From: an uncultured Bacteroidota bacterium
GTDB taxonomy: Bacteria > Bacteroidota > Bacteroidia > Flavobacteriales > Flavobacteriaceae
Direction of reading: 5' to 3'
NCBI GenBank assembly: GCA_902526165.1
Contig: CABZKA010000005.1
Location: 1 to 64,000, forward strand
DNA: 64,000 nucleotides
The stretch's first letter is position 1; the number at the start of each line of letters is the position of its first letter. The position numbers were made by a program, and so were the translations under genes. The notes beneath the pieces were generated by a model. It was not told the DNA's origin, searched no databases, and was given only the letters and a program-made list of their open reading frames with translations. Positions 10,235 through 15,666 of this stretch are shown here, one piece after another.

Positions 10235-11893
10235 ATGAAAAAATTTATTCTGTTAATAATATGTTTGTTTGTAAGCTTCACAGCTTTTTCACAAACAATA
10301 ACATCAGCTTCCTCCGGTAATTGGACCGACGGCTCGACTTGGGTTGGGGGTAATGCACCTGCTAGTGGAAATGATGTAGTTATAGCACACAACGTTACAT
10401 GTAACTCTGTAAAAACTGCAAATTCACTAACAGTCAATGCAGGAGTCACACTGACTGTTGATACATCAGGTAATTTAACAATTACAAATGCAGTCACTGA
10501 TAACGGAACTATTCTAGTCAAAGGTTCAGAAAATTCCTCCGGGAGTTTTATTGCTAAAACAGCTACTGATGTATCTAATCTGTCAGTTCAAGTTTTTGTT
10601 CCTAGAAGTGATGGCAGTACGCCAGATAACTGGAAACTTGTCGGAATTCCAGTCAATGGGGAACAAGTTGGTGATGTCGATGATAACTTAGCGACCAATG
10701 GATCTAAAGTTGGTATAGGTAAATGGGATCATGAGAGTAATTCCTGGGATCTTTACACAACTTCTCAGTCGTTAAGTTACTTACCATCTAACGTTGGTTA
10801 CGAAATGTTGTACAAAGCCTCTGGAGGAGACCAGTTAGTTACTTTTTCTGGATCAATGATTACTACAACCACAAGAGACTCAAGAGAATCCGTTACTAAT
10901 ACGTGGCAGCTTCTAGGCAACCCCTATCCATCATATGTACGGATGTCATCTCAAGCAACTGGAGCTGGTTCTGCGAGCAACGATTATTTTTTCGATACCG
11001 ATAACTTAAATAAGGTAAATGCCTCCTATCAAGCCTTTTACGGCTTTGATGGAAATGCATACGACACATATGCTTACAACAATTCAGATGTTACGCTTTT
11101 GATGCCTGGTGACGCATTTTTTGTCTACTCAGGCGGTTTTAGTACATACACATTTAATGAAGCTATGCAAGTTCACTCATCCGATCAAGGCTTCAGAGGA
11201 AATGTTGTTCCAGGAGGTTCTGATGATGATAACAGAAATGCTGAAATAAAATTTACGATGTCAGATAATTACGGAACATTAAAATATTTAACCATGAAAT
11301 TTGGAGATGACTTTTCTTTAAGTTTAGATCCAGGTGGCGACTTGGGTGCATTTCCATATGGTGAATCCGATATTTATTCAAAGTTAGTTGAGAAAGACAA
11401 TGGTGTTAATTTCACAGTTCAAGCTCTGCCCTATGAGTCAATTGTTGATGTAACTATTCCAATTGGTATTAAATCCGATTCAGGCTTGATGAAACTAGAT
11501 TATAACATAAATACCCTTCCTGAGTACATCGATATGTATTTGGAAGATACTAAGGAAAATACTTTCAAGAAAATCACCGATGGTTTTGAAATCAATTTTG
11601 ATGAAGCTTATGAAGGTTTAGGTAGATTCTACTTACACTTTACTGATCAATTAATTCCAGAACTACCAACTGATGATAATCTAAGAATATACAAAGGATT
11701 AGATTCTGATGTTATGGTTATGGGTTCTGTTGGTAAAAATTACTCTGCTAAAGTGTATGACTACTCAGGTAGATTGATAAAAGAAGTAAACTTCAATCAT
11801 AAAACGAAAATCAATGATTTAGACAGCAAGATGAAGATCTTAAGAATTGAGTCTGAAGAAGGATTAACAATTAAGAAATTTAAATTAAACTAA
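10235..11893 (+). CDS. Secreted surface protein with probable T9SS C-terminal sorting domain
   Basis: 552 aa; signal peptide MKKFILLIICLFVSFTAFSQ, TSASSGNWTDGSTWVGGNAPASGNDVVIAHNVT repeat-like N-terminus, C-terminal VYDYSGRLIKEVNFN...GLTIKKFKLN resembling a T9SS type A tail. Confidence 0.75.
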   Translation: MKKFILLIICLFVSFTAFSQTITSASSGNWTDGSTWVGGNAPASGNDVVIAHNVTCNSVKTANSLTVNAGVTLTVDTSGNLTITNAVTDNGTILVKGSENSSGSFIAKTATDVSNLSVQVFVPRSDGSTPDNWKLVGIPVNGEQVGDVDDNLATNGSKVGIGKWDHESNSWDLYTTSQSLSYLPSNVGYEMLYKASGGDQLVTFSGSMITTTTRDSRESVTNTWQLLGNPYPSYVRMSSQATGAGSASNDYFFDTDNLNKVNASYQAFYGFDGNAYDTYAYNNSDVTLLMPGDAFFVYSGGFSTYTFNEAMQVHSSDQGFRGNVVPGGSDDDNRNAEIKFTMSDNYGTLKYLTMKFGDDFSLSLDPGGDLGAFPYGESDIYSKLVEKDNGVNFTVQALPYESIVDVTIPIGIKSDSGLMKLDYNINTLPEYIDMYLEDTKENTFKKITDGFEINFDEAYEGLGRFYLHFTDQLIPELPTDDNLRIYKGLDSDVMVMGSVGKNYSAKVYDYSGRLIKEVNFNHKTKINDLDSKMKILRIESEEGLTIKKFKLN

Positions 11894-11898
11894 GAATA

Positions 11899-12048
11899 AT
11901 GAAAAAGAAACAAACAAAAATAACTAGAAAAGAAGCTATTAAGAAGTTTGGAAAATACGCTGCTATGACTGCAGTAGGTACTTTCATTGTTCTTAACCCG
12001 CAAAAGAGTGCTGCTCAATCTCCACCTTCACCGGGATGGGGATCGTAG
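11899..12048 (+). CDS. 49-aa small protein with signal-like N-terminus and Pro/Gly/Ser tail; candidate small secreted peptide (not in the supplied ORF track)
   Basis: ATG 5 nt after the upstream stop; translation MKKKQTKITRKEAIKKFGKYAAMTAVGTFIVLNPQKSAAQSPPSPGWGS*; followed by a terminator. Confidence 0.8.
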   Translation: MKKKQTKITRKEAIKKFGKYAAMTAVGTFIVLNPQKSAAQSPPSPGWGS

Positions 12049-12060
12049 GATACTCTAATC

Positions 12061-12096
12061 AAAAAAACCCTTTGCAAATGCAGAGGGTTTTTTTTT
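12061..12096 (+). terminator. Rho-independent terminator after the 49-aa ORF
   Basis: AAACCCTTTGC-AAAT-GCAGAGGGTTT stem (one G-U) followed by a T run. Confidence 0.9.
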
Positions 12097-12145: not shown

Positions 12146-13222
12146 ATGATCATTAAGAAAAAAATCAATAAAGAAGAAAGTCTTATTTATTTAAAAAAAG
12201 TGAATAAGTTTTTAGTTGTTGGTAAAGAAAATTTAAAATTAATTGATGCTTACTTAAAAAAATCTAAAAATGATTTTGATAGTTATTTAAGGAAGAGTTT
12301 TCCAAAAAAGTTTAGAGCAATAAAAAAAGATCTTCAAAATATTTTCAAAGTTGATAGAAAATCAATTGTGAATCAGAATTTGAAGTTTAAAAAGCCAAAA
12401 AAAACTCATTATTTTAATTTTAGAATTGAGGACAAATATTACAGTATTGAATACAACAACTCCAAAATCATCTCATCAGTACTGGGTTTATTAAACCACC
12501 TTAAAGCCAATGCTAAAACGAATAGCGAGAAGATTCATATATACTCATCAAAAAATTATTGTCAACTTAAGATTAATAATAAAAATATGATTTTTAAAAA
12601 GAATGAAAGTCATATTATCTCTGGAAGAATAATTTCATACCTGACCTCAAACCTACATCAAATCAAATACAAAAGTTGGTCAGGTTTTTTACATGGAACC
12701 ACAGTTTCAAAAAACAATAAAGGAGTAATAATTTTGGGTAAATCTGGAAGTGGAAAAACCTTATCTTCTTCTATATTAATTAAAAATGGTTTTGATCTAG
12801 TCTGCGATGATATGTCTCCGCTCACAAGAGATGGTAAAATAGGTTTTTTTCCAAATGCTCTATCTGTAAAGCCAAGTGGATATAAAAAAATTGATCAATT
12901 AATAGAAAATGATTTTCATGTTTGTGAAACAATTGGTCCAAAAGGTCCTACCAAGTATATTTATCCAAAAAATAATCATTTAAAAGTCAAAAAAATACAA
13001 TGTCAAAAAATTGTTAAAATAAGTTTTAAGAAAAACTCCAAGTTAAAAATTGCTAAAATTGATAATAAAGATCTTTTGATTCATTTTTTGGATGATTCCT
13101 TTATCAATATGAATAATTTATCTGCCAAATCATTTATTAGTTGGTTTTTAAATTGTAAATGTTTTGAAATAACCTATACCAGAGATAATGATCTTCTTAG
13201 AGCTTTGAAAAAAATGGAATAA
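12146..13222 (+). CDS. HPr kinase (HprK)-like P-loop kinase, possible PqqD-like N-terminal region
   Basis: 358 aa; WSGFLHGTTVSKNNKGVIILGKSGSGKTLSSSILIKNGFDLVCDDMSPL matches the Walker A plus 'DD' layout of HprK-related proteins. Confidence 0.75.
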   Translation: MIIKKKINKEESLIYLKKVNKFLVVGKENLKLIDAYLKKSKNDFDSYLRKSFPKKFRAIKKDLQNIFKVDRKSIVNQNLKFKKPKKTHYFNFRIEDKYYSIEYNNSKIISSVLGLLNHLKANAKTNSEKIHIYSSKNYCQLKINNKNMIFKKNESHIISGRIISYLTSNLHQIKYKSWSGFLHGTTVSKNNKGVIILGKSGSGKTLSSSILIKNGFDLVCDDMSPLTRDGKIGFFPNALSVKPSGYKKIDQLIENDFHVCETIGPKGPTKYIYPKNNHLKVKKIQCQKIVKISFKKNSKLKIAKIDNKDLLIHFLDDSFINMNNLSAKSFISWFLNCKCFEITYTRDNDLLRALKKME

Positions 13223-13645: not shown

Positions 13646-14179
13646 ATGCCAAAAAAAAAATTTGAGAACAAAACTGTTTTCCTTGATGAAATTCCTGACT
13701 TTGAAAATAGCGAAAACACCAAACTAGAAAAGGATTATATAAAAGTAATCTACGCAAACATATTTATAATATTTTCTTTATTAACGATTGGAGCATTAAT
13801 AGCAACATTAAGTTTTGATCTCTATGCAAAAGGAATATACTATATCATTTGGCTAATATCTTACTTTTTATTTTGGATTATAATTTTAATTTACTACATA
13901 GCTAGTTTTAAAAAGAGAAGCTATAGCTTCAGAGACCATGATGTGGTCTACAATTATGGAGTTATTTACCAAACTAAGGTTTTAATACCTTTTAACAGAA
14001 TTCAGCATATTGCTCTTCACCAAGGACTTTTTTCAAGAATGTATGGACTTGCCTCACTTCAGTTTTATACAGCTGGAGGAGCTACAACTGACATCAACAT
14101 TAAGGGGTTGAAACTTGATACTGCCCAAAAGTTCAAAACTTTTGTTTCAGAAAAAATTGAAAAAATTGACAAAAAGTGA
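13646..14179 (+). CDS. Bacterial PH (bPH2/YdbS-like) domain membrane protein
   Basis: Two TM segments followed by YSFRDHDVVYNYGVIYQTKVLIPFNRIQHIALHQGLFSRMYGLASLQFYTAGG. Confidence 0.8.
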   Translation: MPKKKFENKTVFLDEIPDFENSENTKLEKDYIKVIYANIFIIFSLLTIGALIATLSFDLYAKGIYYIIWLISYFLFWIIILIYYIASFKKRSYSFRDHDVVYNYGVIYQTKVLIPFNRIQHIALHQGLFSRMYGLASLQFYTAGGATTDINIKGLKLDTAQKFKTFVSEKIEKIDKK

Positions 14180-15666
14180 ATAAGGAAATAATTGAAAAAT
14201 ATTCAGTTTTTAGAAAACAGTCAAAAGTAGGAGCTTTGGTTTTTTTATTTGACTCAATAAGAAAAAATGCAGTAAACTTTTTATTTATACTTGTACCTAC
14301 TGGATTTGATTTAGTAGTGTTCATTATTGTATCGATGATCTTTGTTTTGATTATGGGTATTTATGCCTATATCAAATACTATTATTTTGAATACAGTTTT
14401 GATTTTGAAAGGTCAGAGTTTTTGATAAAGAAAGGTTGGCTGAAAAAAACTAAATTATCAGTACCGTTTGAAAAAATTCAACAGGTTAATATAAATCAAA
14501 ACATAATTCACAAAGTTTTTAGTTTGTACGAGATTCAAATGGATACAGCAGGGTCGAAAGATACTGAAGTTGATATCAAAGCGGTTTCAAGAAAAATTGC
14601 AGAAGATTTTAAAGAAATATCCGAGACAATCAAAAAAAGTATTTCAAAAAATATTGATAATAATATAAGCGATATAAAACAGGAAGAGTCATTGGAAATT
14701 GATCTACTTACCCTAGTTAAGACAGGATTGACATCGCAATACTTTGAGACACTCGGTGCAATGATTGCTCTATTTTTTGTTGGACTTGGTTTTTTGAATG
14801 ATTTAGAGATTGACTACGCTCCTGCAATTGTTGATTTTTATTACGAAGCTGATTTTAATGTACTTGCAATTTCAATTGTAATCTTCATTGTGATATATAT
14901 AGTGTTGATGGTTAACCTATGTCTTACTTTAATTAAATATTACGGATATAAAGCACTTAAAAAATTACAAAATCTGGAGGTGAAATATGGCTTGATTCAA
15001 ACAAAATCAATTCTTCTTTCCCCAATAAAAGTACAAGAATTTAGATCCACACAAAATTGGATTCAAAAAAAAATAAATCTTCGCAATGTTAGAATTAGTC
15101 AAGCTTCCAGTATGAATGTGGCCGCTCCAAACAGACGAAATATTGTAGATGTTCCTGGATGCTCAAATGAACAAAAGAATAAATTATTTGATTTTATATA
15201 TGACAATAAAATTAGTGATGAGATTGTTGTGAGGCCTAGTATTCGAAAATTTTTGATTAATTTTTCATTATTTGCTTTACTACCCACAATTATTTTTATT
15301 CTACTGCACAATAACATTTCAATTTTAGATAATGCTTATTTCTTAAATTTCACATTTTTTTATTTCGTAGTCTCATCATTTGCAGCATGGAGATTTTATA
15401 GAAATAGTATTCTTTTCTATTCTGAAAATTTCATAAGAATTCAATCTGGCTTTTGGGATATTAAAACCAAAACAATTGAAAATTATAAAATTCAGTCTGT
15501 GATGCTTTATCAAGCATTTTGGCATAAGAGATTTAATTTAGGTGGTATAATTTTACTTACAGCAGGTGGTATGTCATACATAACAACATGTAATTTTGAG
15601 TTGCTAAAAAAAATCACCAATAATGTTATTTACAAAGTTGAAATATCGAAAAAAAGATGGATGTAA
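14176..15666 (+). CDS. PH domain-containing membrane protein (YdbT-like), paired with the upstream YdbS-like gene
   Basis: 496 aa; repeated bPH2-like blocks (FLIKKGWLKKTKLSVPFEKIQQVNINQNIIHKVFSLYEIQMDTAGS; FIRIQSGFWDIKTKTIENYKIQSVML); 4-nt overlap with previous gene. Confidence 0.78.
   Translation: MNKEIIEKYSVFRKQSKVGALVFLFDSIRKNAVNFLFILVPTGFDLVVFIIVSMIFVLIMGIYAYIKYYYFEYSFDFERSEFLIKKGWLKKTKLSVPFEKIQQVNINQNIIHKVFSLYEIQMDTAGSKDTEVDIKAVSRKIAEDFKEISETIKKSISKNIDNNISDIKQEESLEIDLLTLVKTGLTSQYFETLGAMIALFFVGLGFLNDLEIDYAPAIVDFYYEADFNVLAISIVIFIVIYIVLMVNLCLTLIKYYGYKALKKLQNLEVKYGLIQTKSILLSPIKVQEFRSTQNWIQKKINLRNVRISQASSMNVAAPNRRNIVDVPGCSNEQKNKLFDFIYDNKISDEIVVRPSIRKFLINFSLFALLPTIIFILLHNNISILDNAYFLNFTFFYFVVSSFAAWRFYRNSILFYSENFIRIQSGFWDIKTKTIENYKIQSVMLYQAFWHKRFNLGGIILLTAGGMSYITTCNFELLKKITNNVIYKVEISKKRWM

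Follow-up and report, generated by a model that had tools for sequence, protein, structure and literature searches.

In the phosphorylated lasso peptide clusters, the linear precursor receives a phosphate on a Ser from the kinase K, and the nucleotidyltransferase N leads to a hexose on this phosphate (PMC8498205, PMC9266682). A His-Lys-Asp-Asp set is essential in these kinases (PMC9266682), and the structure of TbiB1, a lasso-peptide RiPP recognition element (RRE), includes its leader peptide (5v1u/5v1v). In the study of gliding, RemA of Flavobacterium johnsoniae is known as an adhesin and RemZ as a substrate of the T9SS that is caught in the translocon (PMC10994853). If our reading of the locus described here is true, it joins two unconnected fields, leader-guided peptide modification (RiPPs) and the T9SS/gliding-adhesin system, through four co-occurring parts: a short peptide, an RRE-kinase, a nucleotidyltransferase and a RemA-type module. 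Our literature search found no paper on such a combination of peptide, kinase, nucleotidyltransferase and RemA module, and nothing relevant on small T9SS partners or on HPr-kinase-type enzymes with T9SS.

The window, by which we mean the whole stretch of 64,000 nucleotides that was analysed, carries the following features, given with coordinates and strand.

10235..11893, + strand: T9SS cargo of 552 aa, with a Sec-type signal peptide, a G8-like N-terminal part and a divergent type A CTD
10826..11890, + strand: RemA/RemZ-type C-terminal module of about 350 aa (profile match E 4.9e-94)
11899..12048, + strand: peptide gene, ATG start, 49 aa, precursor-like, MKKKQTKITRKEAIKKFGKYAAMTAVGTFIVLNPQKSAAQSPPSPGWGS (ORF listing, family alignment, pN/pS)
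11923..11943, + strand: Tat-like motif TRKEAIK, with RK for RR, opening the conserved leader core (motif counts)
12016..12045, + strand: predicted mature tail QSPPSPGWGS, after an SAA/Q signal-peptidase site
12064..12096, + strand: intrinsic terminator in the peptide-kinase gap, a hairpin plus T run
12146..13222, + strand: HprK-like kinase of 358 aa (HprK_rel_A E 2e-12, Hpr_kinase_C E 3e-6)
kinase residues about 1-75, + strand: RRE-like N-terminal domain, much diverged in the window copy and modelled in a relative

The 49-aa ORF reported in the earlier note is present with the sequence given there, and it does begin 5 nt past the stop of the T9SS-like gene (upstream ORF 10235-11893); the terminator that the note had placed 3′ of it has a hairpin of -16 kcal/mol and, after it, a T run. 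A second copy in the same genome, 80% identical, also lies behind a cargo gene. A family scan of GTDB genomes found relatives at 65 loci, mostly in Polaribacter, Tenacibaculum, Winogradskyella and Lutibacter together with marine single-cell and metagenome Bacteroidota. Comparison with close relatives shows mainly synonymous substitutions (6 against 1 non-synonymous at L003, 9 against 1 at L032), and pN/pS is 0.33 overall for 77 members and 0.19 for pooled close pairs. The short ORF is conserved and its pN/pS is not neutral; the lack of conservation that the earlier note had named as counting against its proposal did not occur. Purifying selection on the peptides, a conserved family without a name, is strong, which establishes their coding conservation. 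By segment, pN/pS is 0.19 in the leader core, 0.65 in the tail and 0.70 in the N-terminal extension, and the low value of the leader with the higher value of the tail indicates a conserved leader and a variable core, as in a RiPP precursor. Signal peptides are usually less conserved than this leader core. Searches with the peptide found no matching model in Pfam or NCBIfam, and a comparison with PHROGs gave marginal matches only (E 0.04 or worse). We also observed peptide copies duplicated on their own in L059 and G500.

The conserved part of the peptide reads (I)TRKEA(I/L)KK-GKYAALTAxGTFxILNPxKAxA, and it is followed by a short tail of the form Ser-Pro...Pro-Gly..., for example SPPSPGWGS, SPEAPGTGF or SPPDPGGNPFD, in which Ser41 is nearly invariant across the family; most tails have no C-terminal Ser. 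The leader had been called Tat-like from the window copy alone, and the family bears this out: the motif (I)TRKEA(I/L) has RK where Tat has RR, with RK in nearly all members and RR in none, and the weak non-family matches of the leader profile, phylum-wide, are in six cases out of six the N-terminal Tat-like signals of longer proteins. The proposed SAA/Q-type cleavage is likewise in keeping with a nearly universal AxA pattern ahead of the tail (Ala at -1 in 80/89 members, Ala or Ser at -3 in 86/89), for a predicted tail of QSPPSPGWGS. TatC was found in 197 of 201 genomes, the source genome among them; being nearly universal, the presence or absence of Tat does not discriminate, and the use of Tat is uncertain because the leader has RK and not RR. 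Of the two roles that had been put forward for the peptide, that of a precursor-type short peptide stands, given the leader and the AxA site, and that of a lipid-associated factor is not supported, as there is no lipobox Cys.

The upstream gene had been described as T9SS-like, and this is borne out by its relatives, 40 of 43 of which match Por_Secre_tail; the CTD of the window cargo itself scores below the Pfam and NCBIfam cut-offs. In a profile search of the PDB, the module matches the C-terminal 345 aa of RemA (8gl6, E 2e-40) and of RemZ (8gl8, E 1e-37). The module of a relative was modelled as Ig/FN3-like domains with a terminal CTD that superposes on the CTDs of RemZ, RemA and NucA. The suggestion that the peptide is coupled to a surface-protein gene gains much from the wider family: in 62 of the 67 loci with enough sequence to test, a cargo with this module directly precedes the peptide on the same strand, ending no more than 700 nt upstream, with a gap that is usually 5-80 nt. 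This gene order is established. The N-terminal parts of the cargo vary between loci, and the C-terminal module is constant in the upstream partners. The module subfamily is found at E <1e-58 in 21 genomes, a set nearly identical to the peptide genomes, and nearly all other genomes score E 1e-50 or weaker; the sampled genomes carrying only the general RemA/RemZ-like module are without the peptide. SprA was present in all 16 genomes checked. As one genome (G159) has up to nine module proteins alongside a single peptide, the peptide is not needed one-to-one per module, and when a read-through fusion of peptide and module was modelled, the peptide had a pLDDT of about 50-58 and did not dock.

Several loci show unusual arrangements of the cargo gene. 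Directly upstream of the peptide in G124 (L154 2164-2397) and G137 (L156 1951-2085) are collapsed cargo ORFs of 77 and 44 aa, which retain only the signal peptide and the last CTD strands, as though an internal deletion had removed the rest of the cargo and spared the peptide. At L034 (3913-8256) the cargo-plus-peptide cassette occurs as a tandem duplicate ahead of one kinase gene. Contigs break at the module or peptide gene in G056 (C15 and C22), G068 (C29) and G151 (end of C1), which is expected because the modules are repeated and near-identical, and copy counts from draft genomes probably fall short of the true ones.

The kinase gene, which the earlier note had overlooked, is the recurrent downstream gene by neighbour clustering. 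Its catalytic set, His183, Lys204 (in the Walker A motif GKSGSGKT) and Asp221-Asp222, is invariant in 20 kinase sequences, so that the catalytic residues are established as intact. The family matches HprK_rel_A (TIGR04352) at E 1e-12 to 1e-20 and 47-70 bits, under the 200-bit cut-off. When a Tenacibaculum kinase was modelled with AlphaFold2 as a read-through with its peptide, a b-b-b-a-a-a domain with a pLDDT of 82-94 preceded the kinase domain. Foldseek matched this N-terminal domain to the RRE of TbiB1 (5v1u/5v1v; probability 1.0, target TM 0.68, 2.3 A, 71 columns) and the rest of the model to HprK/P and PEPCK superfamily folds. We regard the folds of the kinase and of the RRE-like domain as established as far as the model of a relative goes, and the N-terminal domain is accordingly described here as modelled to resemble a RiPP recognition element. 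Profile searches with its sequence give weak scores that stay under the cut-off (PF05402, PqqD, E 0.02-0.08; NF050069, 4.5e-4), and a PDB sequence search with the domain gave noise only; the match came from fold comparison alone. The peptide in the fused model had a pLDDT below 50 and was undocked. A hairpin and T run similar to that of the window lie in 12 of the 17 peptide-kinase gaps examined, which suggests that precursor and enzyme may differ in expression level. The kinase is single copy whether a genome has one or nine modules and one or six peptides. In G040 (C1:3440265-3441363) it is apparently frame-shifted into two overlapping pieces, with an intact peptide and nucleotidyltransferase adjoining. 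Further along in the window (13646-15666), downstream of a tRNA cluster, are two adjacent, co-directional membrane-protein ORFs of 177 and 496 aa, possibly a PH-domain pair.

In many loci the kinase is followed by a nucleotidyltransferase of the NTP_transf_5 type (PF14907), with matches over the cut-off at E 5e-30 and 3e-40 and an invariant GDID (GDxD motif). In the source genome this gene is unlinked. Its sole copy, which also has GDID, lies on another contig than the peptide-kinase locus (C1:56146-57099; L162 5126-6181), reversed within an apparent exopolysaccharide gene cluster, and the placement in L164 and L168 is similar.

In a set of 201 genomes with each genus represented once, the peptide was found in 20 and the kinase in 20, with 19 common to both, and the nucleotidyltransferase in 18, all within the kinase set. 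A naive hypergeometric calculation, uncorrected for phylogeny, gives 2e-24 for the overlap of peptide and kinase. The two mismatches are G049, where the kinase is at a contig edge and the assembly is 82% complete, and G137, which is 84% complete. In phylum-wide samples, clear matches to the peptide and to the kinase fell in the same five genomes. Co-occurrence at the genome level is thus established, and linkage alone cannot explain it, because the genes are apart in the source genome and in G124, G151, G285 and G500, the last four having the kinase far from the peptides. In the distant genus Gaoshiqia (Gaoshiqia sediminis, L095 2403-5261) the kinase and nucleotidyltransferase are divergent from a 101-aa peptide with no T9SS module adjoining; the leader of this peptide is conserved and its tail is unrelated and Asn/Gln/Gly-rich. 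This arrangement suggests that the three genes have a longer history or are mobile, and that the peptide tail is fully changeable.

We favor the explanation that the 49-aa ORF encodes a precursor that is modified by the kinase under guidance of its leader, exported, cleaved, and active together with RemA/RemZ-type T9SS cargo, and we put the probability of this at roughly 0.62. The leader (residues about 7-39) would have two roles, as a handle for the RRE-like domain of the dedicated HprK-like kinase and as a Tat-like signal. The kinase would phosphorylate the Ser/Pro/Gly-rich tail in the cytoplasm, most likely on Ser41, or on the C-terminal Ser49 in the source species, and the NTP_transf_5 enzyme could then put a nucleotide or sugar onto the phosphate, as the pseudomycoidin K and N pair does. 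The modified precursor would be exported, a step for which a Tat-like route would suit the modified tail but is uncertain, and signal peptidase I would cut at the AxA site to free about 10 residues, QSPPSPGWGS. The freed peptide may act in the envelope alongside the T9SS cargo bearing the RemA/RemZ-type module, a role suggested by gene order and co-occurrence. Coding conservation, co-occurrence beyond linkage, the RRE-like fold, the catalytic residues, the Gaoshiqia trio, the AxA site, the Tat-like profile matches and the presence of TatC all speak for this modified precursor, which is weakened by the undocked peptide, the RRE scores below cut-off, the RK motif, the tails that mostly lack a C-terminal Ser, the uneven ratio of modules to peptides and co-occurrence counts that are uncorrected for phylogeny.

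Alternatively, the peptide could be exported unmodified, as a small periplasmic or membrane partner (a chaperone or assembly factor) of the RemA-type cargo, with the enzymes of the same regulon acting on another target, such as a glycan, a lipid or the cargo. The tightest physical link in the system is indeed that between peptide and cargo module (the 62 of 67 loci), in G285 and G500 peptide and modules have been duplicated together, and no docking was seen in the kinase fusion model. We nevertheless consider it unlikely, while taking it seriously, since both enzymes co-occur with the peptide also where their genes are unlinked, the kinase bears an RRE-like domain, the known role of which is leader binding, and the Gaoshiqia trio has no adjoining module gene. 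The unusual conservation of the leader core, at the value given above, would also fit a leader that is not a signal at all, the peptide being a cofactor in the cytoplasm or inner membrane that would switch on the kinase by binding to the RRE, much like a sensor of the status of the envelope or the T9SS; its one hydrophobic segment and the single-copy kinase agree with this. A nearly universal AxA followed by a Ser/Pro/Gly-rich tail is better suited to cleavage and export, and we find the cofactor quite improbable.

The types of kinase, nucleotidyltransferase and RRE-like domain match those of phosphorylated lasso clusters, and it was therefore considered whether the product is a lasso peptide or a RiPP natural product cyclised in some other way. 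The lasso cluster was rejected, as the B2 protease (PF13471) is in none of 18 peptide-bearing genomes; nor is there a cyclase (C, asparagine-synthetase-like) among the recurrent neighbours within 5 kb, or a plausible Gly1...Asp/Glu7-9 core, which leaves a cyclised product very improbable. That the ORF is a non-functional relic or arose by chance behind the cargo gene might be argued from its very small size and from copies without an obvious start (the second copy at L083). The substitution pattern refutes this, with purifying selection evident from pN/pS, and the occurrence in many genera, the paralogues and the strict gene order leave it scarcely credible.

Returning to the modified and exported precursor, we point out one further idea, offered only because the parts co-occur. 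In Porphyromonas, T9SS type A cargo is described as tethered via a seryl-sugar linker on A-LPS (PMC13086638), and by analogy an exported phospho- or glyco-peptide might serve as an anchor, linking group or mobile fastener for RemA-type T9SS adhesins. We think this doubtful; if true, it would represent a new way to attach or tune surface adhesins. The four parts of the system as a whole occur in cultured genera such as Polaribacter, Tenacibaculum, Winogradskyella and Lutibacter, which makes the modified-precursor reading directly testable.

Among described systems, the phosphorylated and phosphoglycosylated lasso clusters (paeninodin PadeK, ThcoK, pseudomycoidin PsmK-PsmN) likewise have a short precursor, an HprK-like kinase with His-Lys-Asp-Asp and a nucleotidyltransferase partner, and their B1-type RRE fold resembles the N-terminal domain modelled here; the PF14907 assignment was made for the nucleotidyltransferase of the peptide system, to which PsmN is likened as a nucleotidyltransferase partner. 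Unlike those clusters, the peptide system has no B2 protease and no lasso core, its RRE-like domain is fused to the kinase, and it has a Tat-like leader with a signal-peptidase site and a link to T9SS adhesins; the known lasso-kinase substrates have a C-terminal Ser, which the tails here are usually without. HprK-related kinase A (TIGR04352) is the NCBIfam model that the kinase domain matches best, in the C-terminal half of that model, but the kinase described here scores far under the 200-bit cut-off, has an extra N-terminal RRE-like domain and has other neighbours. The cargo module of about 350 aa aligns over its full length with RemA and RemZ of F. johnsoniae and forms a distinct subfamily. 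The Tat signals of Bacteroidota enzymes share with the peptide a common (S/T)R-K/R-x-A-I/L-K motif, a hydrophobic core and an AxA site, whereas the peptide has RK for RR, about 10 residues after the site and an unusually conserved signal.
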